Assembly: GCF_000374645.1 (NCBI RefSeq)
Contig: NZ_KB894803.1
Coordinates: forward strand, 1 to 64,000
Reading direction: 5' to 3'
DNA length: 64,000 nucleotides
Origin: Arhodomonas aquaeolei DSM 8974
GTDB lineage: Bacteria > Pseudomonadota > Gammaproteobacteria > Nitrococcales > Nitrococcaceae
Positions within the stretch are counted from its first letter, which is position 1, and each line of letters begins with the position of its first letter. The translations under genes and the position numbers were made by a program. The notes under the pieces are model-generated. The model made no database searches. It was not told the DNA's origin and saw only the letters and a list, made by a program, of their open reading frames with translations. Positions 2,763 through 14,013 of this stretch are shown piece after piece.

Positions 2763-3437
2763 TCAGAAGAAGCGCCGCGCGAATACCACCCGCACGCCGT
2801 TCCAGGGGCCGGTAACCGCCTCGACGCCGACCCGGCCGCCCCCGCCGGTGTCCAGCGATATCCCGGCGTAGGCGCCGGCGGCGTGGTCGGTATCGAAGCC
2901 CTGGGTGTCGACGTCCTCGATCTCGCGCTCGCCATCGGTGAGCGTGTAGAGGAGGCCGCCAGAGAGGGTGCCGGCATCGAGGTCCGCGGCGAGCCCGGCA
3001 CGCAGATCGCCCTCGTGACGGCTGAGGGTGATGTCGCCGGTATCACGGCTCGCGCTCGCGCGGTAGTAGCGCCAGCCCGCCTCGCCGGTAACCGCCAGCG
3101 TCCGCGTCAGCGGCCACTCGCCACGGACCGCCAGGCCGCCGTAGCCGCCGGTGAGGTCCTCGCCCTCGGTGGCCGGATCGCCGTCCTGGGTGACCAGGTT
3201 CACGCCCAGGATCAGGCCACCGTCCACGTGGGCGCTCAGCGGCTCCCACAGGGAGACGCCGACGCGGGTCTCGCGGGTCTCTATCTCGCGGCCGTCATCG
3301 TAGTCGAGGTCGCTGCGCTGGTGGGCCACGTCCATGGAGAAGGACAGCGGGTCCGCGGCCACCGCGGGGGTGGTGCCGAGCACCGCGGCCAGGCCCGCGG
3401 CGGCGGCCAGGTGCCGGCGGGCGCGCACGGCCGTCAT
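2763..3437 (-). CDS. Predicted outer-membrane beta-barrel protein
   Basis: A 224-residue exported protein of unknown function. It begins with a typical Sec signal peptide (about residues 1-28, cleavage after AVAA) and continues with alternating polar/hydrophobic strands, several glycine-aspartate turns and a terminal phenylalanine (ARRFF), as expected of a small outer-membrane barrel. It recalls YfaZ-like proteins, but this is not certain. The ATG at 3437 follows a good GGAGGAGG ribosome site and overlaps the sseA stop as ATGA, so translation is coupled to the sulfurtransferase gene. Confidence 0.7.
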
Positions 3438-4285
3438 GCCTCCTCCCCGGTGGCGACCGGCCGGTTCGGATCGCGGATCCACTCGCTCCAGGAGCCCGGA
3501 TTGAGGGCGGCCTCCGCGAGGCCCGCGTGAGCTAGGGCGAGCACGTGATGGCAGGCGCTGACACCGGAGCCGCAGATCGCCACCACCGGCCGGCCGCTCG
3601 CCCGGTCGAGGATCTGGCTCCACTGACCGCGCAGCTCGGAGACCGGCAGGAACCGGCCGTCGTCGCCGAGATTGGCGCTGACCGGACGGGACAGGGCCCC
3701 GGGCACGTGCCCGGCCACCGGGTCGATGGGCTCGGCGTCACCGCGATAACGCTCGCGGCTGCGCGCGTCGACCACGCAGAACCCGTCCAGGGTGCCGGCC
3801 AGCGTCTCGGTACCGACCACGGGCATGGAGCCCGGGTGCGCGCGGTAGCGGCTGCGGTGGGACGGCTCTGGGGTCTCGTCGGTAAGCGCGCCGCCGGCGT
3901 CGCGCCAGGCGGCGAGGCCGCCGTCGAGCACGGCTACCGCCTCGTGGCCGAGCCAGCGCATCAGCCACCAGAACCGGGCCGCCATGGCGCCGGGACCGTC
4001 GTCATAGACGACGATCTGGGTCTCGTTGCCGATACCGTGACGCTCGAGCCAGGCGACCAGCGCATCCGGGTCCGGCAGCGGATGACGCCCGGTACTCCCG
4101 GTCACGGGCCCCGAGAGGTCGTGGTCGAGGTCGGCGTGGAAGGCACCGGGAATGTGCGCCCGCTGCCAGGCCCGCCGTCCGGCCTCCGGATCGGCGAGAT
4201 CGAAGCGGCAGTCCACCACGGCCCAGTCGCCCCGCGCCGGGGCGGCGAGGAGTTCGTCAGTGTCGATGAGGGTCGTCCAGCGCAT
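3434..4285 (-). CDS. sseA: 3-mercaptopyruvate/thiosulfate sulfurtransferase
   Basis: A 283-residue two-domain rhodanese that transfers sulfane sulfur from mercaptopyruvate or thiosulfate to a thiol or cyanide acceptor. The N-terminal inactive rhodanese domain covers about residues 5-130 (VVDCRFDL, HIPGAFHADLDHDL) and the C-terminal active domain about 155-280, with catalytic Cys238 in CGSGVSA, close to the CGSGVTA loop typical of mercaptopyruvate sulfurtransferases. The ATG at 4285 is preceded by GGAAGG; longer starts would run into the leader. It is the first gene of its minus-strand group, divergent from amiC. Confidence 0.92.
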   Translation of the reverse strand: MRWTTLIDTDELLAAPARGDWAVVDCRFDLADPEAGRRAWQRAHIPGAFHADLDHDLSGPVTGSTGRHPLPDPDALVAWLERHGIGNETQIVVYDDGPGAMAARFWWLMRWLGHEAVAVLDGGLAAWRDAGGALTDETPEPSHRSRYRAHPGSMPVVGTETLAGTLDGFCVVDARSRERYRGDAEPIDPVAGHVPGALSRPVSANLGDDGRFLPVSELRGQWSQILDRASGRPVVAICGSGVSACHHVLALAHAGLAEAALNPGSWSEWIRDPNRPVATGEEA

Positions 4286-4325
4286 GGCACCTTCCCGCAA
4301 AAAGCCCGGATTCAGCGATCCATTC

Positions 4326-4353
4326 AGGATATGCGCCCCCCGCCACGGTGCAA
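4326..4353 (-). promoter_or_regulatory. Candidate sigma70 promoter of sseA
   Basis: On the minus strand TTGCAC (4353-4348) and TATCCT (4331-4326) are separated by 16 bases, about 40 bases upstream of the sseA start. Both hexamers match consensus at four or more positions. No promoter this clear is seen for the divergent amiC; a TTGACT at 4366-4371 has no good partner. Confidence 0.4.
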
Positions 4354-4403
4354 GAGGGCGTCGTCTTGACTTATGACAATTGTTTGCCAAGCTTCCAGTC
4401 AAC

Positions 4404-4467
4404 GGTGCGATGCCCAACGGCGGGCAGCAATGCACCGAAGACACAGCATCCGGAGCAATGCAGCTCC
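4404..4467 (+). promoter_or_regulatory. ANTAR (AmiR) two-hairpin antiterminator before amiC
   Basis: Hairpin P1: TGCCC (4411-4415) pairs with GGGCA (4422-4426) around the hexaloop AACGGC; an outer stem GGTGC (4404-4408)/GCACC (4432-4436) extends it. Hairpin P2: GGAGC (4452-4456) pairs with GCTCC (4463-4467) around the hexaloop AATGCA. Both loops have A at position 1 and G at position 4, the hallmark of RNAs bound by ANTAR antiterminators. The 3' arm of P2 lies inside the 5' arm of the terminator at 4462-4520, so P2 and the terminator exclude each other. AmiR, encoded one gene downstream, is the obvious ligand. Confidence 0.8.
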
Positions 4468-4520
4468 TCGTCTGCTACGGCCGTTCACTGCGACGGTCGA
4501 TGACGGGGAGCTTTTTTTTT
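4462..4520 (+). terminator. Intrinsic terminator/attenuator before amiC
   Basis: AGCTCCTCGTC (4462-4472) pairs with GACGGGGAGCT (4502-4512) over 11 positions with one G-U wobble, and is followed by an unbroken T-run to 4520. The loop can fold further (CCGT/ACGG). The T-run directly abuts the GGGAGG ribosome site of amiC (4521-4526), so read-through is required to express amiC and amiR. Confidence 0.85.
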
Positions 4521-4538
4521 GGGAGGCACCACGAGGGA

Positions 4539-5714
4539 ATGAGCAGGGATATCCAGTCCGGGAAGCCCTGGCGGCTCGGGGTCCTGTTTTCGCAGACAGG
4601 CACGACTGCCGTCATTGAGCGAACCCAGCTCCGGGCGACGTTACTGGCGATCGAAGAGGTCAACGAGGCCGGCGGTGTCGACGGCCGCGAAATCGAGCCG
4701 GTCGTCTACGATCCGGGCTCCGTGATGGAGCGCTACGGCGAGCTGGCCGAGCGCCTGTTCACCGAGGACGACGTCGAGGTGATCATCGGCTGCTACACCT
4801 CGTCATCGCGCAAGGAGGTCCTGCCGGTCGTCGAGCGCCGCAACGCCCTGTTCTTCTACCCGACGCTCTACGAGGGATTCGAGTACTCCCCCAACGTCAT
4901 CTACGGAGGCGCCGCCCCCAACCAGAACAGCGTGCCCCTGGCCCGCTATCTGATGGAGAATTTCGGTGAGCGTTTCTGCTTCGTGGGCTCGGACTACATC
5001 TACCCCAGGGAGTCCAACCGGGTGATGCGCAACATCGTCCGGCAGGCCGGGGGGGAGGTGGTCGGCGAGTTCTACACCGAGCTCGACGCGGGCGCGGACG
5101 ACTTCCAGCCGATCCTCGCCGAGATCGAACGCCTCCGCCCCGACGTGATCTTCTCCACGGTGGTCGGCGACGCCACGGTACGCTTCTACCAGTCCTATCT
5201 CGCCTACGCGGGCGACGGGACCAGCGTGCCTATCGGCAGCCTGACCACCAGCGAGTCCGAGGTCGCGGCGATGGGGGCGGAGGCGGCGGCGGGCCACATT
5301 ACCGCAGCACCGTACTTCCAGAACCTGGAAACCGAGGCCAACCGTGCCTTCCTCAAGCGCTTCCGCGCACGCTACGGCGACGACACGGTCGTGACCAGCT
5401 GCGGTGAGGCGAGCTACTTCCAGGTCCACATGTTCGCCAATGCGCTGCGCATGGCCGGGAGTACCGATACCGACCGGCTCCGCGACGTGCTGCGGGGCTC
5501 GGAATTCGAGGCGCCGCAGGGCCGCGTGAAGATCGATCCCGACAACAACCACACCTACCTGCACTCCCGCATCGCCCGCGTGGACCGGACGGGCCAGTAC
5601 GTCGTCGAGCGGGAGCTCCCGCGCGCGATCAAGCCAGACCCTTACCTCGTGGTCCCCGCGCTCAACGACTGGAGCGTGGACATCACCCATCCGGGCCGTC
5701 GCCGACGCTCATGA
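4539..5714 (+). CDS. amiC: Amide-sensing negative regulator AmiC
   Basis: A 391-residue cytoplasmic homologue of type I periplasmic binding proteins that senses short amides and sequesters the antiterminator AmiR until inducer binds. Motifs shared with Pseudomonas aeruginosa AmiC include IIGCYTSSSRKEVLPVVERR, YPTLYEGFEYSPN, GGAAPNQNS, FVGSDYIYPRESN and SLTTSESEVAAM. There is no signal peptide, in contrast to its paralogue at 6954, which is what separates sensor from transporter component. The ATG at 4539 was chosen because it follows GGGAGG and gives the AmiC-like start; upstream in-frame ATGs lie within the RNA leader. It is 22 bases before amiR. Confidence 0.93.
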   Translation: MSRDIQSGKPWRLGVLFSQTGTTAVIERTQLRATLLAIEEVNEAGGVDGREIEPVVYDPGSVMERYGELAERLFTEDDVEVIIGCYTSSSRKEVLPVVERRNALFFYPTLYEGFEYSPNVIYGGAAPNQNSVPLARYLMENFGERFCFVGSDYIYPRESNRVMRNIVRQAGGEVVGEFYTELDAGADDFQPILAEIERLRPDVIFSTVVGDATVRFYQSYLAYAGDGTSVPIGSLTTSESEVAAMGAEAAAGHITAAPYFQNLETEANRAFLKRFRARYGDDTVVTSCGEASYFQVHMFANALRMAGSTDTDRLRDVLRGSEFEAPQGRVKIDPDNNHTYLHSRIARVDRTGQYVVERELPRAIKPDPYLVVPALNDWSVDITHPGRRRRS

Positions 5715-5736
5715 CAGCAACGAAGATGCGGAGTTG

Positions 5737-6369
5737 ATGGCAACGAGCAACATCATAAAGAGCATCCGTAATCTGCGCGTACTCGTACTCCACCCACGGG
5801 ACAGTCACGCGGAGCAGCTGCTGCAGCAGGTACGGCGGATCGGGTGCCAGGCCGAGGCGATATGGCCGTTGCCCGAGCGGTTGCCGGAGCACGCGGATCT
5901 CGTGTTCATCGAGGTGACCGAATCCCCGTCACGGGCCCTGCGCCAGCTGGTGGACAAGGATGTTGAACACCGCCCCACCGTGATCGGGGTGGTGAGCTAC
6001 GAGAACCCCTCGGTCCTCGAGGCCCTGCTGGAGATGCGCGCTGACGCGGTACTGACAAAGCCATTACGGCCCTCGGGCGTGCTTAGCAGCATGGTGCTCG
6101 CGCGCCGGATCTGGGACGACTTCCGGCGCTCACAACGCGCGCTGAGCAAGCTCAAGGCGAAGGTCAAGAACACCCAAACCGTGAGCCAGGCAAAATTCAT
6201 CCTGATGCGGCTTCACCAGATCCCGGAGGACGAGGCGTACTCGATCATCCGGAGCCAGGCGATGGCCAAGCGTGCGACCACGGTGGAGATCGCCCAGGCG
6301 ATCATCAACGCGGACGGCATCCTGGGCAATATCAGCGCCAAGACGGTGGACCTGGACAAGACCCGCTGA
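5737..6369 (+). CDS. amiR: ANTAR-domain antiterminator AmiR
   Basis: A 210-residue RNA-binding transcription antiterminator. Residues about 12-130 form a degenerate receiver-like domain (LRVLVLHPRD, no phospho-acceptor aspartate pair), a coiled coil follows (about 130-155) and the C-terminal ANTAR domain covers about 150-205, with the conserved pattern AKFILMRLHQIPEDEAYSII. Architecture and length match AmiR of Pseudomonas (196 residues). The ATG at 5737 lies three bases after GGAG; a TTG at 5734 is possible. Its predicted RNA targets are the two-hairpin elements at 4404-4467 and 6802-6850, and perhaps 6612-6652, so it would activate its own operon and the transporter-amidase operon. Confidence 0.92.
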   Translation: MATSNIIKSIRNLRVLVLHPRDSHAEQLLQQVRRIGCQAEAIWPLPERLPEHADLVFIEVTESPSRALRQLVDKDVEHRPTVIGVVSYENPSVLEALLEMRADAVLTKPLRPSGVLSSMVLARRIWDDFRRSQRALSKLKAKVKNTQTVSQAKFILMRLHQIPEDEAYSIIRSQAMAKRATTVEIAQAIINADGILGNISAKTVDLDKTR

Positions 6370-6611
6370 CCGCTTACCGGCGGCACCGGAACAAAATGGT
6401 CACCGGAAAACGGATATGGAATGCGTATGAAACGGTCACGGTTTCCATGAACGTCACGGCCATTCGCCGGGGAGGGTCGATTATTGCGGAAATTCGCAAT
6501 ACACGATCTAAAAACTGATTAAACGATATATCCCTGTACGGCCTGGGGAGCGGACCACCGGGCAATGACATCGAACCGCGGGTGATCAATTCGCAAGTCT
6601 TGATCATGCGG

Positions 6612-6657
6612 GGACGGCAACGGCGCCGTCCAGATGTCGGCCAGAGAAGGCCTTTTT
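6612..6657 (+). promoter_or_regulatory. Third ANTAR-like two-hairpin motif, 3' of amiR
   Basis: P1: GGACGGC (6612-6618) pairs with GCCGTCC (6625-6631) around the hexaloop AACGGC, the same loop as in the amiC leader. P2: GGCC (6639-6642) pairs with GGCC (6649-6652) around AGAGAA; both loops have A1 and G4. TTTTT follows at 6653-6657. No competing terminator that uses the P2 3' arm is visible, so it may be an end-of-transcript structure, a remnant or an AmiR-binding decoy. The rest of 6370-6760 is relatively AT-rich and no gene is credible in it. Confidence 0.5.
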
Positions 6658-6763
6658 CATGGAATCGGGAATCGGTTGATTTTTTCACGGGGCGAAATCC
6701 CCGGCGGTATCCTATTGCCATAATTTCTCCAAAAAAGAAATTTAATTCATACACAACAAGGGG

Positions 6764-6792
6764 TTGCGAAACCACACTCCTTGTGCTTTAAG
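6764..6792 (+). promoter_or_regulatory. Candidate promoter of the transporter-amidase operon
   Basis: TTGCGA (6764-6769), a 17-base spacer and TTTAAG (6787-6792), each four of six to consensus. A start near 6799 would place the first antiterminator hairpin (6802 or 6806) at the very 5' end of the transcript, as in other antitermination leaders. An imperfect inverted repeat, ACAAGG (6756-6761)/CCTTGT (6779-6784), spans it. Confidence 0.45.
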
Positions 6793-6801
6793 TAACTGTA
6801 A

Positions 6802-6850
6802 CCGACCCATCAATGCAGATGGGACGGCCTCCAGACGGGCAACGCGGCCC
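6802..6850 (+). promoter_or_regulatory. ANTAR (AmiR) two-hairpin antiterminator before fmdD
   Basis: P1: CCCATC (6806-6811) pairs with GATGGG (6818-6823) around the hexaloop AATGCA, extended by CCG/CGG (6802-6804 with 6825-6827) across an A-A mismatch. P2: GGGC (6837-6840) pairs with GCCC (6847-6850) around the hexaloop AACGCG. Both loops have A1 and G4. The 3' arm of P2 is the first four bases of the terminator's 5' arm, so formation of P2 blocks termination. Confidence 0.85.
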
Positions 6851-6894
6851 CTTGATACCGGCATTCGTTAATTGCCGATCAAGGGGCTTTTTTT
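6847..6894 (+). terminator. Intrinsic terminator/attenuator before fmdD
   Basis: GCCCCTTGAT (6847-6856) pairs perfectly with ATCAAGGGGC (6878-6887); inside it CGGCA (6859-6863) pairs with TGCCG (6873-6877). Seven T residues follow (6888-6894). This would stop transcription about 60 bases before fmdD unless AmiR stabilises the overlapping P2 hairpin. Confidence 0.9.
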
Positions 6895-6953
6895 GTGCCC
6901 GCCATTCCCGCTGGATCGGGATACGCGCAGGACGAAAAACCGGGAGTACCGAA

Positions 6954-8192
6954 ATGAAACGACGAAATTTCCTAAAGGGCGTGGCCGCCGCCGGTGCGGC
7001 CGGCGCCGCCGGCTTCCCCGGGATCTGGATCAAGGGCGAAGGCATGGCACACGCGGCCAACGGTGAGATCCCCGTAGGCGTGCTCTTCTCCCTGACCGGT
7101 CCGGTCGCCGTGGTCGAGAGCACGCTGCACGACGCGTGCATGCTCGCGATCGAGGAGATCAACGCCAACGGCGGCGTCAACGGCATGAAACTGCGGCCCT
7201 ACGTGGAGGATCCCGCCTCCGACCCGGCCACATTCGCCGACCGCGTACGGCGCCTGGTGATACGGGACAAGTGCGTGAGTGTGTTCGGCTCCTACACCTC
7301 GGCGAGCCGCCAGGCGGTACTCCCGGTGGTCGAGCAACGCAACAACCTCTACTGGTACCCGACCCTCTACGAGGGCCGAGAATGCTCGCGCAACGTCATG
7401 TACGGCGGCGCCGTGCCCAACCAGCAGCAGCAGGAATTCGTGCCCTGGCTCGCCGAGAAATTCGGCAAGCGCTTCTATCTCATCGGTAACAACTACGTCT
7501 ATCCCCGGGAGGAGAACAACGTCTGCAAGATCCTCCTGGACCGCCTCGGCGGCGAGGTCGCCAACGAGGAGTACGTGCCGCTGGGCCATTCGGACTTCGG
7601 ATCCGCGATCAACCGGATCCGGCGCGAAGAGCCGGACGTGATCTTCTGCACCCTGGTCGGCGATTCCGACGTGGCCTTCCAGCGCCAGCTCCACGCCGCG
7701 GGCTTCGACCCGGGGGAGATGCCGGTGGCGAGCCTCACGCGCTCGGAGATCGAGGTCAAGGCGATGGGCGGCGAGGCGGCCGCAGGGAATTTCTCCTCGG
7801 CACCGTACTTCATGGCCCACCAGTCCGCCGCGAACGAGCGTTTCGTCGAGGCCTATCTCAAACGCTACGGCAGCGACCAGGTCACGCACTTCGTCAGCGA
7901 GGCCGCCTACTTCCAGGTCTACCAGTTCAAGGCGGCGGTCGAGCAGCTCGCCAGGAGCGACATCGACCCGATCAGTATCCGCGACGCGGCGGTGGGCCTG
8001 CGAACCACGGCCCCCCAGGGCGAGATCGAGATTGATCCCAATCTCCACACCCACCTGTGGCCGAAGATCGGGCAGTGGCAGAGCGACGGTCAGGCCCGGG
8101 TCCTGGTCGAATCGGACAAGCGTGTGGCCCCGGAGCCGTACTGGGCCTACGACGGCCAGTCGTGCACCGCGGAGGGCCTCGTCAAGGGCTAA
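6954..8192 (+). CDS. fmdD: Amide/urea ABC transporter substrate-binding protein
   Basis: A 412-residue binding protein of the AmiC/FmdD/UrtA group that would capture short-chain amides or urea in the periplasm. It starts with a twin-arginine signal (MKRRNFLKG followed by a hydrophobic alanine-glycine stretch to about residue 34), then the type I binding fold with FSLTGPVAVVEST, FGSYTSASRQAVLPVVEQ, YPTLYEGRE, GGAVPNQQ and NYVYPREEN. It is a paralogue of the cytoplasmic AmiC encoded upstream. The ATG at 6954 follows GGGAG by seven bases. It is the first gene of the operon behind the terminator at 6847-6894; formamide/acetamide rather than urea is suggested by the linked amidase. Confidence 0.9.
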   Translation: MKRRNFLKGVAAAGAAGAAGFPGIWIKGEGMAHAANGEIPVGVLFSLTGPVAVVESTLHDACMLAIEEINANGGVNGMKLRPYVEDPASDPATFADRVRRLVIRDKCVSVFGSYTSASRQAVLPVVEQRNNLYWYPTLYEGRECSRNVMYGGAVPNQQQQEFVPWLAEKFGKRFYLIGNNYVYPREENNVCKILLDRLGGEVANEEYVPLGHSDFGSAINRIRREEPDVIFCTLVGDSDVAFQRQLHAAGFDPGEMPVASLTRSEIEVKAMGGEAAAGNFSSAPYFMAHQSAANERFVEAYLKRYGSDQVTHFVSEAAYFQVYQFKAAVEQLARSDIDPISIRDAAVGLRTTAPQGEIEIDPNLHTHLWPKIGQWQSDGQARVLVESDKRVAPEPYWAYDGQSCTAEGLVKG

Positions 8193-8246: not shown

Positions 8247-9116
8247 ATGGACGTATTCTTCAATCAGGCCTTCACCGGTTTGAGCACCGCCTCCATTCTG
8301 CTGCTGGTCGCCCTGGGCCTGGCGATCATCTACGGCGCGATGGGGGTCATCAATCTCGCCCACGGCGAGTTCGTGATGCTCGGCGCCTATGCCGCCTGGT
8401 TCCTGCAGAGCTTTCTGGGTATTGGGCTGTTTCTCGGGCTGCCCCTGGTATTCGTATTCGTCGCACTGCTGGGGCTGGCCATCGAACGCGGCCTGGTCCG
8501 CTGGCTGTATCACCGGCCGCTGGACACCATCCTCGCCACCTGGGGCGTCGGTATCGTGCTCCAGCAGCTCGTGCGCATGATCGCGGGTCCCGACTCCCGC
8601 TACGTCGAGCGCCCCGCGATGCTGGACGGCAATCTGCGGATCGCCGACGTATACATGTCCAACTACCGGATTTTTCTTCTTTTCTTCTCGGTAGCCGTGC
8701 TCGTTGCCACCTGGTATCTGATGACGCGCACCGAGTTCGGGACCAAGCTGCGCGCGGTCATCCAGAACCGCGAGATCTCCGAGTGCTACGGCATACGGAC
8801 CGAGCGCGTGTATGCGCTGACGTTCGCATACGGCGCCGGACTCGCGGGCATCGCCGGCGCCCTCATCACACCGCTCGCCAGTGTCACCCCCGGCATGGGC
8901 ACCAATCTCGTGGTGGACGCCTTCCTGGTGGTGATCGTCGGCGGGGTGGGCAGCCTGCTGGGCACGGCGGCGGCCTCCGGGCTCGTGGGCGAGGCGACCG
9001 CGCTGTTCTCGTTCCTGCTCAACGACACCATCGGCCGGGTCGCCGTGCTGATGGCCATCATCGTTCTTATCCGGTTCTGGCCCCAGGGCCTGTTCGCCGA
9101 CCGGATCCGGCGATAG
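8247..9116 (+). CDS. fmdE: Amide/urea ABC transporter permease (LivH/UrtB type)
   Basis: A 289-residue inner-membrane permease with about eight hydrophobic segments, belonging to the branched-chain amino acid/urea permease family. The hallmark GVINLAHGEFVMLGAY occurs near residue 43, and FGTKLRAVIQNREISECYGI is the cytoplasmic loop that couples to the ATPases. The ATG at 8247 follows GGGGAA and yields MDVFFNQAFTGLS, a typical UrtB-like start; an upstream GTG gives only a non-conserved extension. It pairs with the next gene to form the membrane channel. Confidence 0.9.
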   Translation: MDVFFNQAFTGLSTASILLLVALGLAIIYGAMGVINLAHGEFVMLGAYAAWFLQSFLGIGLFLGLPLVFVFVALLGLAIERGLVRWLYHRPLDTILATWGVGIVLQQLVRMIAGPDSRYVERPAMLDGNLRIADVYMSNYRIFLLFFSVAVLVATWYLMTRTEFGTKLRAVIQNREISECYGIRTERVYALTFAYGAGLAGIAGALITPLASVTPGMGTNLVVDAFLVVIVGGVGSLLGTAAASGLVGEATALFSFLLNDTIGRVAVLMAIIVLIRFWPQGLFADRIRR

Positions 9117-9128
9117 GGGAGCCACGCT

Positions 9129-10265
9129 ATGAACCAGAATTTCCGCTTCGACTGCGTCGGATACGCACTGTTCGCCGCACTGGTGCTGCTCGCCGTGCCC
9201 TGGTACCTGTCCTTCGACGGATTCGAGCTCAACACCTTTGCGCGCTACCTCGCTCTCGGCATGGTGGCCATGGCGCTGGCGCTGTCCTGGGGCTACGCGG
9301 GGATCCTCAACCTCGGGCAGGCGGCGACCTTCGGCATCGGCGCCTACATCATGGCGATGCATCTCAAGCTCGGGGCGAGCGCGGCGAACCCGGGCGGCCT
9401 TCCCGACTTCATGGGCTGGACCAACGTCGAGACACTGCCGTGGTTCTGGGTCCCCTTCCACTCCCTGACGGTAACGTTGCTCGCCGGCGTTCTGCTCCCG
9501 GCGGCGGTCGCGGGCGTGATCGGCACGTTCATGTTCCGCGGCCGCATCACCGGGGTGTTCGTGGCGATCATCACCCTCGCACTGCTGGTCGCCATCCAGC
9601 TCGTGTTCGTCGAGTACCAGATGTACACGGGCGGCCAGAACGGCCTGACGGGGCTGGCGCCGCTGGTGCTCGCGGGCTGGACCGCGGACCCCTACAGCAC
9701 CGCCTTCTACTACTTCGTGGCCGGGTGCCTGCTCGTCGCGACGGCGGCGTGTGTGGCACTGACGCGCAGCAAGGTCGGACTCATCCTGCGCGCGATCAAA
9801 GAGAACCCGGACCGGGTGCGGTTCTTCGGCTACCACGTCTCGAGCTTCGAGACGGTGGTGTTCTGCATTTCCGCGATGATCGCCGGCTGGGCGGGAATGC
9901 TCTACGTCCTGGTGCTGGAGTTCGCCTCACCAACCTACATGGGGGTGCCGTTCAGCCTCGCGATCGTCATCTGGTGTGCGGTCGGCGGCCGTAACTCCCT
10001 GGTCGCGGCGGCGCTCGGCGGGATAGTGGTCAACATCCTCGAGGGACGGCTCTCGGACCTCTTCGTCGAGGGCTGGACGCTGTTCCTCGGCGTCACGTTC
10101 ATTCTCGTCGTGCTGTTCATGCCCGACGGCCTGTTCGGCGTATTCCGCAGAATTGCCACCAGGCTCCACGAGCGGCTGCGCCGTCACCGCAACAGCACGG
10201 GCAAGGCGCTCCCGACAGGCGCCGGCGCCGTGCCGGCCCGGGCCGGCGAGCAGGGGGGGCAGTAG
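9129..10265 (+). CDS. fmdF: Amide/urea ABC transporter permease (LivM/UrtC type)
   Basis: A 378-residue second permease subunit with multiple membrane segments. Recognisable motifs are YAGILNLGQAATFGIGAYIMAMHLK (read as the LivM loop, near residue 60), the GRITGVFVAIITLA segment and the coupling loop SKVGLILRAIKENPDRVRFFGY. The C-terminal tail after the last membrane segment is basic and disordered-looking (about residues 345-378). The gene begins 12 bases after fmdE and ends two bases before the first ATPase gene, consistent with tight cotranscription. Confidence 0.9.
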   Translation: MNQNFRFDCVGYALFAALVLLAVPWYLSFDGFELNTFARYLALGMVAMALALSWGYAGILNLGQAATFGIGAYIMAMHLKLGASAANPGGLPDFMGWTNVETLPWFWVPFHSLTVTLLAGVLLPAAVAGVIGTFMFRGRITGVFVAIITLALLVAIQLVFVEYQMYTGGQNGLTGLAPLVLAGWTADPYSTAFYYFVAGCLLVATAACVALTRSKVGLILRAIKENPDRVRFFGYHVSSFETVVFCISAMIAGWAGMLYVLVLEFASPTYMGVPFSLAIVIWCAVGGRNSLVAAALGGIVVNILEGRLSDLFVEGWTLFLGVTFILVVLFMPDGLFGVFRRIATRLHERLRRHRNSTGKALPTGAGAVPARAGEQGGQ

Positions 10266-10267
10266 TC

Positions 10268-11011
10268 ATGGCGCATCTCGAACTTAAGGAACTGGGCGTG
10301 CATTTCGGCGGGCTTCGCGCCGTGGACGGCCTGAACCTGTCCCTGAAGTTCGGCGAGCTGCGCTGCCTGCTCGGCCCGAACGGCGCGGGGAAGTCGACCA
10401 CGCTCGATCTGATCTGCGGCAAGACACTGCCAACCGCGGGCCGGGTAGTCTTCGATGACCGCGACATCACCGGCCTGAAGGAATACCAGCGTGCCCGCTG
10501 CGGCATCGGCCGCAAGTTCCAGACACCGGCAGTCTTCAGGGATCTAACGGTCTGCGAAAACCTCGAGGTGGCCCGGTCCCAGCACCCCGGCGTACTCAGC
10601 GCACTGGGTGTGTTCCGCTCACGGGTGCGCGGCCGCATGGCGGAGGTCCTCGAACTCGTGGAGCTGACCGGCGAGCTGCACACGCGCGCCGGCAACCTAT
10701 CCCACGGCCAGACCCAGTGGCTAGAGATCGCCATGCTGCTGATGCAGGACAGCCGGCTGATCCTCTTCGACGAGCCCACTGCCGGGATGACCATACAGGA
10801 GACCCACAAGACCGCGGGCATATTCAACGCCCTGAAGGGCAGTCACACGATGATCGTCGTCGAGCACGACATGGGGTTCGTGCGCGAGATCGCCGAGACG
10901 GTGACGGTCATGGACATGGGGACGCTGCTCGCCGAGGGCAGCATCGCCGATGTGGAGAACGACCCCGCCGTGCGCGAGGCGTACCTGGCAAACGGAGGCG
11001 ACGATGCTTGA
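10268..11011 (+). CDS. Amide/urea ABC transporter ATPase (LivG/UrtD type)
   Basis: A 247-residue ABC ATPase that powers the transporter. Walker A GPNGAGKST lies near residue 37, the Q-loop IGRKFQTPAVF near 80, the signature is the divergent LSHGQTQWLEIAM, and Walker B is LILFDEPTAGMT, followed by the H-loop VVEHDMGFVREIA. The signature SHGQ instead of SGGQ is usual in UrtD-type ATPases. The 3' end overlaps the start of the next ATPase gene by eight bases, implying coupled translation. Confidence 0.9.
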   Translation: MAHLELKELGVHFGGLRAVDGLNLSLKFGELRCLLGPNGAGKSTTLDLICGKTLPTAGRVVFDDRDITGLKEYQRARCGIGRKFQTPAVFRDLTVCENLEVARSQHPGVLSALGVFRSRVRGRMAEVLELVELTGELHTRAGNLSHGQTQWLEIAMLLMQDSRLILFDEPTAGMTIQETHKTAGIFNALKGSHTMIVVEHDMGFVREIAETVTVMDMGTLLAEGSIADVENDPAVREAYLANGGDDA

Positions 11012-11699
11012 GGCGCAGGCCCTGTATTCCTATTACGGCAAGAGTCCGATCGTCCAGGACGTGAGCTTCACGGTTCCCGAGGGGAGCTTCGTGAGCGTGC
11101 TCGGCCGCAACGGCGTGGGCAAGACCACGCTGTTGCGCACCGTCATGGGGCTGACCGACGGCATCTCCGGGCGGCTGTCGTTCCGCGGCGAGGACCTTGG
11201 CCGGCTGCCCACTCACGAACGGGCGCGCCGCGGCATCGGCTATATCCCCCAGGGCCGCGAGGTGATCCCGCGCTTCAGCGTGCGCGAGAACATCGTCATG
11301 GGGACCTACACCCGCAGGGACGGGCGCCGGGACCTCCCCGGACACATCCTGGAGCTGTTCCCCGTGCTCCGCGAATTCCTCGACCGCCGCGGCGGCGACC
11401 TGTCCGGCGGGCAGCAACAGCAGCTCGCGATCGCGCGGGCACTGGCCATGGACCCCAGGGTCCTCCTCCTCGACGAGCCCACCGAGGGTATCCAGCCGAA
11501 CATCGTCCATGAGATCGAGCAGGTACTGCTGCGGCTCAACCGGGAGTTCGGCATCACCGTCGTGCTGGTCGATCAGAACATCCCCTTCGCACGCAGGGCC
11601 TCGGACCACTTCATCGTCCTCGACAAGGGCCGTGTGGCCGTGGCGGGCCACGGCGAGGAGCTCACCGACGAGGTCGCGGAACGGTATCTCACCTTCTGA
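11004..11699 (+). CDS. Amide/urea ABC transporter ATPase (LivF/UrtE type)
   Basis: A 231-residue second ABC ATPase. Walker [10 protein letters not shown] is near residue 35, the Q-loop [10 protein letters not shown] near 80, the signature [15 protein letters not shown] near 135 and Walker [14 protein letters not shown] follows; IPQGR and EPTEGIQP are typical of UrtE. The ATG at 11004 has GGAGG six bases upstream and overlaps the previous stop. It completes a five-gene uptake system (one binding protein, two permeases, two ATPases) immediately upstream of the amidase gene. Confidence 0.91.
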
Positions 11700-11778
11700 A
11701 CCGCCCGGACACGGCGGAAAACGAACGGGCCGACGTGCCCAATCGCCTCCAAGCGCACCAAGAGAGAGGAGTGACAAC

Positions 11779-12819
11779 ATGCGTCACGGTGACATTTCCA
11801 GCAGCAAGGACACGGTCGGGGTCGCGGTCGTCAACTACAAGATGCCGCGGCTGCACACCCGGGCCGAGGTCCTGGAGAACGCCGAGAAGATCGCCGATAT
11901 GGTCGTCGGCATGAAGCAGGGCCTGCCCGGCATGGACCTGGTGATCTTCCCGGAATACAGCACCCACGGGATCATGTACGACCCGAAGGAGATGATGGAC
12001 ACGGCGAGCAGCGTCCCCGGCGAGGAGACCGAGATCTTCGCCAGGGCCTGCCGCAAGGCCAATACCTGGGGGGTGTTCTCGCTCACCGGCGAGCGCCATG
12101 AGGAGCATCCGAAGAAGAACCCGTACAACACCCTGATCCTCATGGACAACAAGGGCGAGATTGTCCAGAAGTACCGCAAGGTCATCCCCTGGTGCCCGAT
12201 CGAGGGCTGGTACCCCGGCGGCCAGACCTTCGTCAGCGAGGGTCCCAAGGGCCTGAAGGTCAGCCTGATCATCTGCGACGACGGCAACTACCCGGAGATC
12301 TGGCGCGACTGCGCCATGAAGGGCGCCGAGCTCATCGTCCGCTGCCAGGGCTACATGTACCCGGCGAAGGAGCAGCAGGTGATGATGTCCAAGACCATGG
12401 CCTGGGCCAACAACTCCTACGTCGCGGTGTCCAACGCCAGCGGCTTCGACGGGGTCTACAGCTACTTCGGCCATTCCGCGATCATCGGTTTCGACGGCCG
12501 TTCACTCGGCGAATGCGGCGAGGAGGAGATGGGCATCCAGTACGCCCAGCTCTCGGTGTCCGAGATCCGCGATGCGCGCGCGAACGACCAGTCCCAGAAC
12601 CACCTGTTCAAGATCCTGCACCGCGGCTACACCGGGATGCACGCCTCGGGTGACGGGGACAGGGGCGTCGCGGACTGTCCCTTCGAGTTCTACCGGACCT
12701 GGGTTAAGGACGCCGAGAAGGCCCGCGAGGACGTCGAGGCGATCACCCGGCGCAAGGCCGGCGTCGCCCAGTGCCCGGTCGGCAGTATCCCCTACGACGC
12801 CGAGGAAAAGGAGGCCTGA
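11779..12819 (+). CDS. amiE: Aliphatic amidase
   Basis: A 346-residue cytoplasmic nitrilase-superfamily amidase hydrolysing acetamide, propionamide and similar short amides to ammonia and the acid. Length equals Pseudomonas aeruginosa AmiE, and the N-terminal MRHGDISSS and long stretches throughout match it. The catalytic triad is in register: Glu59 (FPEYS), Lys134 (KYRK) and Cys166 (LIICDDGN). The ATG at 11779 is preceded by GAGAGGAG. It lies 79 bases after the transporter genes, so substrate uptake and hydrolysis would be induced together by the AmiR-controlled leader far upstream at 6802-6894. Confidence 0.97.
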
Positions 12820-12860: not shown

Positions 12861-12891
12861 CGTAATCCCGCAGGCACCAGGAGCCCCGCGC

Positions 12892-14013
12892 ATGCCGTTC
12901 ATCAATGACATGCTGGAGAACAGCCACCGGGAACAGGCCCAGCGCAGCGCGCTGAAAGCGGAGAACGCCGCCGGCGAGGACGTCGTACAGGCGCACCTGG
13001 CGAGTCAGTCCACGCTGGAGAGCCGCTTCCGTTTCGACGTCGACACGGTCATGGGCACCCTCCGGAACGAGATCATCGGCCAGGACGACGCCCTGCGCGC
13101 GGTGGAGGACATCCTAAAGGTGGTACGCGCCGACATAACCGACCCCCGCCGGCCGCTGTTCACCGCGCTGTTCCTCGGCCCGACCGGGGTGGGCAAGACG
13201 GAGGTGGTCCGGTCGCTGGCGCGCTCCCTGCACGGCGATGCCGACGCGTTCTGCCGGGTCGACATGAACACGCTCTCCCAGGAGCACTACGCGGCGGCCC
13301 TCACCGGCGCCCCTCCCGGTTACGTCGGGGCCAAGGAGGGCAACACGCTGCTGGATCAGGACCGTCTCGAGGGCGACCACGGCCGCCCGGGGATCGTGCT
13401 TTTCGACGAGCTGGAGAAGGCCAGCCCCGAGGTGCTCCAGGCGTTGCTCAACGTATTCGACAACGGCCTGCTCACGGTCGCCTCCGGCGAGCGGACCTAC
13501 AGCTTCCGTAACGCCCTGGTATTCATGACCAGCAACCTGGGGGCCCGGGAGATACAGCGCGACGAGCAGCGCCGGCAGAGTGGATTGCGGCGCTGGCTGC
13601 CTTCGAGCACACGGCGCCGGCATCGTCGGGTGGAGGAGATCGTCCGCGACAAGCTCCTGCGGGCCTTCACCCCGGAGTTCGTCAACCGGATCGACAACAT
13701 CACGGTGTTCAACTGGATCGAACCGGAGCTGGTGGAACGGCTGGTGGCACTCGAGGTCGAGCGACTCAACCGCCGGCTGCTCAAGCATCGCTGCCGTCTG
13801 GAGGCACGGCCGGCAGTACTGAGCCATGTCGCCCGCGCGGGATTCGACCGCCAGTTCGGCGCCCGTTCCCTGCGGCGGGCTGTCCGCCATCAGATCGAGG
13901 TGCCCTTCGCGGAATACCTGCTCAATCATCACCGGCCGGACGAGGACGCCCGGACACTGACCACCTACGTGGCCGAGCACGGCGACGGGGGCGTGCGTTT
14001 CCGGATGCCGTAG
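12892..14013 (+). CDS. amiB: AmiB, ClpB-like single-AAA chaperone
   Basis: A 373-residue AAA+ ATPase related to the second ATPase module of ClpA/ClpB, as encoded after amiE in Pseudomonas aeruginosa (371 residues). Walker A GPTGVGKTE lies near residue 98, the pore-type loop APPGYVGAKEG near 140, Walker B VLFDELEKA near 170, sensor 1 MTSNLGA near 210, the arginine finger in FTPEFVNRID near 265 and the small domain ends with FDRQFGARSLRRAV. There is no N-domain or first AAA module. The ATG at 12892 follows AGGAG by eight bases. Its cellular role is unknown; the link to ami genes suggests a part in amidase or transporter assembly. Confidence 0.85.
   Translation: MPFINDMLENSHREQAQRSALKAENAAGEDVVQAHLASQSTLESRFRFDVDTVMGTLRNEIIGQDDALRAVEDILKVVRADITDPRRPLFTALFLGPTGVGKTEVVRSLARSLHGDADAFCRVDMNTLSQEHYAAALTGAPPGYVGAKEGNTLLDQDRLEGDHGRPGIVLFDELEKASPEVLQALLNVFDNGLLTVASGERTYSFRNALVFMTSNLGAREIQRDEQRRQSGLRRWLPSSTRRRHRRVEEIVRDKLLRAFTPEFVNRIDNITVFNWIEPELVERLVALEVERLNRRLLKHRCRLEARPAVLSHVARAGFDRQFGARSLRRAVRHQIEVPFAEYLLNHHRPDEDARTLTTYVAEHGDGGVRFRMP

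Follow-up and report, generated by a model that had tools for sequence, protein, structure and literature searches.

In Pseudomonas aeruginosa, the amidase operon is amiEBCRS, and freed AmiR permits transcription of the whole operon, amiR included (PMC5259723). The target of AmiR is a leader upstream of amiE, in which paired hexaloop hairpins precede a terminator, and amiR lies within the operon (PMC3369931, PMC3369936). Because amiR sits behind the amiE leader, a positive loop through read-through is already part of the known circuit. The EutV leaders of E. faecalis (eutP, eutG, eutS, and eutA) also carry paired hairpins, P1 and P2, and EutV is phosphorylated. Their P1-P2 linkers measure 5 to 12 nt; changing that of eutP to 3 or 14 nt drastically cut induction in vivo (PMC3369931), and extending a linker by 20 nt abolished antitermination in vitro (PMC8934654). 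In Paracoccus denitrificans, the NasT/NasS regulator pair lies upstream, and the hairpin leader of nasA stands between this pair and the structural operon (PMC5424462). ANTAR-linked genes found by covariance search among nitrogen genes already include urea transporters (Ramesh et al., PMC3369931).

Here, we analyze the first 64,000 nucleotides of contig NZ_KB894803.1 of Arhodomonas aquaeolei DSM 8974 (the window). As in P. aeruginosa, its amidase locus combines AmiC and AmiR with an aliphatic amidase and with paired hexaloop hairpins before a terminator. The wiring is different: P. aeruginosa has one leader before amiE and amiCR later in the same operon, whereas here amiCR come first with a leader of their own, and a second leader precedes urtABCDE-amiE-amiB. 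With the EutV leaders, the locus shares A1/G4 hexaloops in P1 and P2, overlap of P2 and terminator, and several leaders per locus, and the P2 of the amiC leader matches 12 of the 13 positions of the published eut consensus AGCAANGRRGCUY in our own comparison. Unlike EutV, AmiR is held by AmiC, and the linkers here are 25 and 13 nt. The Paracoccus arrangement of regulator pair, leader, and structural operon is similar, but the available portion of that account describes no attenuator before the regulator pair. The ANTAR-target RNAs of PMC3369931 share the motif, and one target gene is of the same kind as that of the urtA leader; section 10 of that paper names no AmiC-AmiR-like sensor/regulator pair as a target, although its tables may list an amiC leader. 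A literature search whose reach stopped short of those tables found no amiC leader of this kind. As far as could be seen, what is new is a separate attenuator on a regulators-first amiC-amiR unit, common to ten genomes. From the sequence, we consider it highly likely that an AmiR-responsive ANTAR antiterminator controls amiC-amiR itself and that the same event at the urtA leader turns on urtABCDE-amiE-amiB.

Results

The amidase locus

The genes of the locus are as follows.

4539 to 5714, plus strand: amiC, amide sensor (Peripla_BP_5; best PDB match AmiC, 1pea/1qo0, E 4e-111)
5737 to 6369, plus strand: amiR, ANTAR antiterminator protein (AmiR_N and ANTAR; PDB 1qo0 AmiR, E 1e-26)
6954 to 8192, plus strand: urtA-like amide/urea-binding protein with a TAT signal (profile matches)
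8247 to 11699, plus strand: urtB, urtC, urtD, and urtE transporter genes (all four above the NCBIfam cut-off)
11776 to 12819, plus strand: amiE, aliphatic amidase (NF009802, 714.6 bits)
12886 to 14013, plus strand: amiB-like AAA ATPase, ClpB-like (AAA_2 and ClpB_D2-small)

AmiC, whose structure matches also include 1qnl, is a Peripla_BP_5 sensor that adjoins amiR and shows no export signal; a TAT signal was reported for the urtA-like protein only, by profile matches rather than by a signal-peptide predictor. AmiR has a pseudo-receiver N-terminal domain and an ANTAR domain (PF21332, 134 bits; PF03861, 51.2 bits; both above cut-off). The last gene is presumably amiB, a name that we take from gene position. 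Upstream of the amiC leader, the gene at 3434-4285, rhodanese-like by reading, is divergent, so the terminator at 4462-4520 serves no upstream gene and should act only on transcripts that start in the divergent gap. Elsewhere in this genome, contig 14 (L004) carries a second AmiC-like/AmiR-like pair, side by side.

Competing structures ahead of amiC

Two leaders flank the amiC-amiR unit.

4366 to 4371, plus strand: TTGACT, candidate -35 box for amiC (TTGAC at similar spacing in 6 of 9 amiC leaders)
4403 to 4437, plus strand: extended P1, outer helix 4403-4408/4432-4437 enclosing the P1 core (minimum-energy fold)
4411 to 4426, plus strand: ANTAR hairpin P1, tgccc-AACGGC-gggca, hexaloop AACGGC (sequence, strict scan, covariance-model match)
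4452 to 4467, plus strand: ANTAR hairpin P2, the antiterminator, ggagc-AATGCA-gctcc, hexaloop AATGCA (strict scan, model, three-way pattern with the terminator)
4462 to 4520, plus strand: intrinsic terminator, arms 4462-4472/4502-4512, T-run 4512-4520 (sequence, folding, strict scan)
4521 to 4526, plus strand: putative ribosome site GGGAGG of amiC, 12 nt before the ATG at 4539 (sequence)
6806 to 6850, plus strand: second full ANTAR element, P1 6806-6823 (AATGCA) and P2 6837-6850 (AACGCG) (strict scan; model R2, 31.3 bits)
6846 to 6894, plus strand: terminator of the urtA leader, arms 6846-6856/6878-6888, then a T-run (sequence, strict scan, folding)

A first-pass annotation had placed two A1/G4 hexaloop hairpins in the amiC leader, the 3' arm of the second lying inside an 11-bp terminator whose T-run ends at the amiC ribosome site. 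The hairpins are there in the sequence, and the overlap is borne out by sequence, folding, and scan. One of the 11 terminator pairs is G-U, and the run that ends at the ribosome site is nine T long. Since the P2 3' arm (4463-4467) falls within the terminator 5' arm (4462-4472), the two structures are mutually exclusive. Folded alone, 4400-4470 forms both P1 and P2 (z -3.25), and 4400-4525 forms the terminator and no P2 (z -3.80); 0 of 200 shuffles were as stable in either case. The predicted energies are -7.3 kcal/mol for P2 and -30.4 kcal/mol for the terminator, so termination is the expected default without a helper. Extended P1 (4403-4440) reaches -19.1 kcal/mol in the minimum-energy fold. 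A1 and G4 are present in both hexaloops of 4411-4467 and of 6806-6850.

Between the five-pair cores of P1 and P2, the window's amiC leader has a linker of 25 nt, whereas linkers in the 15 other leaders compared span 6 to 18 nt. In the predicted fold, pairing of the outer P1 helix cuts the unpaired stretch ahead of P2 to 14 nt. This is near the 13 nt of the window's urtA leader, a figure counted from its P1 core, which its own flanking pairs may shorten. Ahead of P1, TTGAC stands 40 to 45 nt before the core in six of nine amiC leaders (window 45, L016 44, L017 42, L019 42, L020 40, and L021 42); L018 has TTGAC at 65, L083 has TTGAT at 32, and L060 has none. A tenth leader, in L089, has TTGACA 43 nt before its P1. 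A sigma-70 consensus scan of 4200-7000 returned no promoter-like site.

Occurrence in the genome and in related loci

Our strict scan required a pair of hairpins, each with an A..G.. hexaloop and a stem of 4 pairs or more, a linker of 2 to 35 nt, and a terminator 5' arm overlapping the P2 3' arm. On both strands of the 64 kb, it found two elements, at 4411 and 6806; a third row was an overlapping variant of the second. No such element appeared in 60 dinucleotide shuffles (30 under the same rule and 30 under a stricter one, with a terminator stem of at least 8). Rfam 15 gave no match anywhere in the 64 kb and, with the threshold relaxed to E ≤ 5, nothing relevant in 4300-7000; note that Rfam may hold no ANTAR family. 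We therefore built covariance models of our own.

Model R1 was built from 16 leaders, two of them from the window. In the 72 relatives' loci, it gave 23 matches at E ≤ 1, 14 of which were its own rows. Six others (L016, L017, L019, L027, L060, and L065; E 0.0023 to 0.13) lie upstream of urtA or amiE, as placed at the AmiR locus by the gene map or, for L016 and L019, by reading; the remaining three (L043, L044, and L082) are weaker, with E 0.64 to 0.97. Model R2 comprised 17 matches from relatives and excluded the window, although its underlying alignment was fitted with R1, which included it. The first-pass annotation had suggested a covariance-model search of the amiC leader and of its counterparts in relatives. 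Run with R2 on the organism's own genome (3.96 Mb; 150 of 1958 first-look candidates scored), this search had the urtA leader as its best match (31.3 bits, E 9e-4), ahead of the amiC leader at 4411-4467 (24.7 bits, E 0.03) and of a third match with 19.7 bits. A locus in neither model, L089, was matched at both leaders (urtA 37.2 bits, amiC 32.4 bits). A further match in the own genome, at C2:470277, scored 19.4 bits. Model matches at C8:46708 and C8:68795, which look coding by eye, and at C9:55682, which by eye spans a gene end, were rejected as leaders.

The relatives were sampled through AmiR homologues, which gave 72 loci, and 10 further loci were added (82 scanned). The strict scan returned plus-strand matches in 6 of the 72 and one minus-strand match in L065, and none in the 10 further loci. 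It missed close relatives because their hairpins carry a mismatch or a G1 loop; these were read by eye, then by a relaxed rule, then with the covariance model. Nine other genomes have an amiC leader in which a terminator accompanies ANTAR-like hairpins (L016-L021, L060, L083 by reading, and L089). All ten amiC leaders but those of L021 and L060 are gammaproteobacterial, as judged from names or from relatedness to the window.

Gene order varies among the loci. The regulators come first, followed by urtA-E, amiE, and amiB, in the window, L017, L018, L020, and L021; L083 has the same order up to amiE, with amiB not detected, and in L016 and L019 the regulators are first and the sequence ends inside urtA. 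They come last, behind urtA-E, amiE, and amiB, in L022 (Marinobacter), L023 and L024 (both Aquisalimonas), and L026, and behind amiE and amiB in L027. Most other loci have urtA or amiE after amiC-amiR. On plasmids of Caballeronia and Klebsiella, the homologous amiCR genes come after urtA-E and an amidase gene, and R2 found no convincing leader in these plasmid loci. On a quickly made AmiR tree with many open forks, lacking L089, the amiC-leader label requires two changes.

In a search of 200 nt (150 nt for the window), 14 of 69 loci have a terminator with six pairs or more upstream of amiC; 55 of 59 have one in the gap between amiR and the gene after it, a count favored by the longer stretch searched (up to 500 nt vs 200 nt). 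An attenuator-like terminator is therefore common before urtA or amiE and a minority feature before amiC. A first anchored test for P2 found none for L016, L018, and L020. A second rule found an overlapping P2 at nine of the 14 amiC-upstream terminators (window, L016-L019, L021, L060, L081, and L083) and none at L020, L029, and L086. Single loci are weak evidence in this test because the shuffle fractions range from 0.006 to 0.173; L081, at 0.125, was not counted as an amiC leader.

Three details were seen by eye between amiR and the next gene. In L030, L031, and L037, a terminator is present and the hairpins upstream of it lack the A1/G4 hexaloop pair, and AmiR recognition may differ there. 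L083 has a tandem pair of terminators between amiR and urtA (10600-10780), each preceded by hexaloop hairpins that follow the A1/G4 rule only in part. In L017, a stretch of ~270 nt with inverted-repeat ends (10740-11010) looks like an inserted palindromic element between amiR and urtA.

Paired changes among leaders

The first-pass annotation had staked its reading on covariation of the stems among relatives, which the scores and the three-way changes given here display. Across 16 leaders, 92.3% of cells pair, and across 24 leaders 91.1%, percentages that are inflated and partly built in because model rows were chosen or aligned by their hairpins. The covariation score is 0.535 for the 16 leaders, against 0.183 when shuffled and at most 0.169 with slid partners; for the 24 leaders it is 0.524, against 0.169 and 0.171 for shuffles and slid partners.

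At the third position from the loop, 12 of 22 leaders have G-C-G in the P2 5' arm, the P2 3' arm, and the terminator 3' arm, 8 have A-T-A, and 2 have A-T-G, the terminator register having been picked for best pairing among five. In each of the 22, the terminator also pairs all five positions of the P2 3' arm, again in the best of five registers. The three-way split tracks amiC leaders (10) versus urtA leaders (12), so the pattern may stand for few evolutionary events. The L021 amiC leader has an additional A-T-A at the fourth position. Within P2 itself, pairing is 5/5 in seven leaders, 4/5 in 14, and 3/5 in one (the urtA leader of L018). Exceptions to the loop rule are the P1 loop of L016 and both P2 loops of L020, which begin with G, and the P1 loops of the L026 and L021 urtA leaders, from which G4 is absent. 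The stems carry one mismatch each in L017 P1, L018 P2, and L019 P2.

The region behind amiR

A further ANTAR-like element lies between amiR and the urtA leader.

6612 to 6657, plus strand: third, partial element, hairpin 6612-6631 (AACGGC), hairpin 6639-6652 (AGAGAA), T-run 6653-6657 (R2 match, shuffles)

A seven-pair hairpin with loop AACGGC is followed by ggcc-AGAGAA-ggcc and five T. R2 matches 6614-6653 with 18.7 bits (E 0.014 for the window), and in shuffles of 6370-6800 a dual hairpin appeared in 0.35%, while none of 2000 had one with a T-run. All six close relatives examined have the first hairpin after amiR (L016 3068, L017 11039, L018 10799, L019 10804, L020 10881, and L089 6554), with compensatory changes, in rows that were picked by motif. 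It has the form GGC-AAYGNN-GCC in the window and five relatives and is a compensated AGC..GCT variant in L020. Its distance is 802 to 884 nt from the start of amiR, or ~170 to 250 nt from the gene's end; in L017, with its insertion, the distance is greater (1042 nt from the start). No linked terminator switch was detected. The second hairpin has a counterpart in L020 only. The bare hairpin motif is not specific because it also occurs elsewhere in the loci (once each in L017, L018, and L020, and before amiC in L089) and because the organism's own genome has 8 copies of CGGCAAYGGYGCCG versus 4 of the reversed control. In L089, a hairpin with an AACGGC loop (4363-4378) stands directly 5' of the -35 of the amiC promoter.

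The hairpin at 6612-6631 may act as a decoy or as a DNA site, or may have some other role. EutX is an earlier example of an ANTAR site that lacks a terminator (PMC5821096). We hold it doubtful, though conceivable, that a decoy for AmiR is built into the amiC-amiR message. As with the EutX/Rli55 sponge of EutV, such a hairpin would bind AmiR while controlling no separate terminator, and it would add a negative arm to the positive loop.

The same gap (6369-6530) contains a GGAGG-type ribosome site followed by an open reading frame of 6 to 12 codons, in the window as in L016-L020 and L089, without evident sequence conservation. The start codon is ATG in L018, L019, L020, and L089 and GTG or TTG in L016, L017, and the window. 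This short frame is a possible leader peptide or relic start.

Discussion

The sequences themselves establish the two alternative structures, show that these recur and covary in relatives, and give the identities and order of the genes. By most sequence tests, the amiC leader is very probably an ANTAR-type antiterminator, set against a linker of 25 nt compared with the 5 to 12 nt of EutV. If AmiR binds this leader, self-control of amiC-amiR follows because the genes behind it encode AmiC and AmiR.

We propose the following mechanism. A transcript would start a few bases before P1, the 11-pair terminator would fold by default, and transcription would stop at ~4513-4520. When AmiC binds a short amide, AmiR would be released, and an AmiR dimer would hold P1 and P2. 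P2 would then capture the terminator 5' arm and polymerase would continue into amiC-amiR. AmiR would also act on the leader at 6806-6894, so that urtABCDE-amiE-amiB would be induced separately. The result would be positive autoregulation of amiC-amiR, for which basal read-through must supply the first AmiC and AmiR. Counting against the proposal, besides the linker, are the modest R2 value of the amiC leader (E 0.03 for the genome), the negative promoter scan, and the relatives that depart from the loop and stem rules.

A real ANTAR antiterminator could also be worked mainly by another ANTAR protein, either from the AmiC-AmiR-like pair on contig 14 or NasT-like, giving cross-regulation in place of a self loop. 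The genome does have four ANTAR proteins, AmiR and three others, one of them AmiR-like; the AmiC-like and AmiR-like proteins of L004 adjoin, and in L001 a NasT-like protein lies beside a NasS-like one (by eye). However, the leader lies directly 5' of amiC-amiR in ten genomes, the other strong site belongs to the next operon of the same locus, and in 18-kb regions around the other three ANTAR genes no R1 match exceeded 13.8 bits. We regard cross-regulation as improbable.

We think it more improbable still that the terminator is a fixed attenuator that constantly lowers amiC-amiR, with P1 and P2 as relics that AmiR no longer uses across too long a linker. The linker, beyond what EutV tolerates, is in our analysis the main doubt about the function of the amiC leader; its length is extreme among the 16 leaders and exceeds the EutV spacing limits (PMC3369931, PMC8934654). 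Furthermore, R2 scores this leader below the nine other amiC leaders (24.7 versus 27 to 38.4 bits), eight of which are themselves R2 rows. Against decay, both loops, the C-G pairs that close them, and the overlap of P2 with the terminator are preserved, and the outer P1 helix would bring the unpaired distance close to that of the urtA leader. That hairpins and terminator arose by chance and have no regulatory role has a negligible probability: high G+C DNA readily forms hairpins and single ones are unremarkable, but the shuffles gave no such element and the arrangement recurs and covaries in relatives.

A self-controlled ANTAR leader, as the first-pass annotation had it, is supported by its ANTAR-type structure, by the AmiC and AmiR genes behind it, and by similar leaders in nine other genomes. 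The annotation's further claim, that the positive loop is foreign to the textbook Pseudomonas circuit, finds no support, since amiEBCRS has amiR behind the amiE leader (PMC5259723, PMC3369936). The arrangement extends rather than breaks the known ANTAR/AmiR picture.

Our findings suggest that the wiring of AmiC-AmiR varies, from one leader over a whole amidase operon with the regulators at its tail to a regulators-first unit that has an attenuator of its own, with a second one ahead of the transporter and enzyme genes. For the latter, the predicted behavior is amide-dependent positive autoregulation with a basal leak, and the amiC-amiR message itself may carry a decoy site. The natural linker variants, from 6 to 25 nt, offer material for a spacing rule of ANTAR RNAs.
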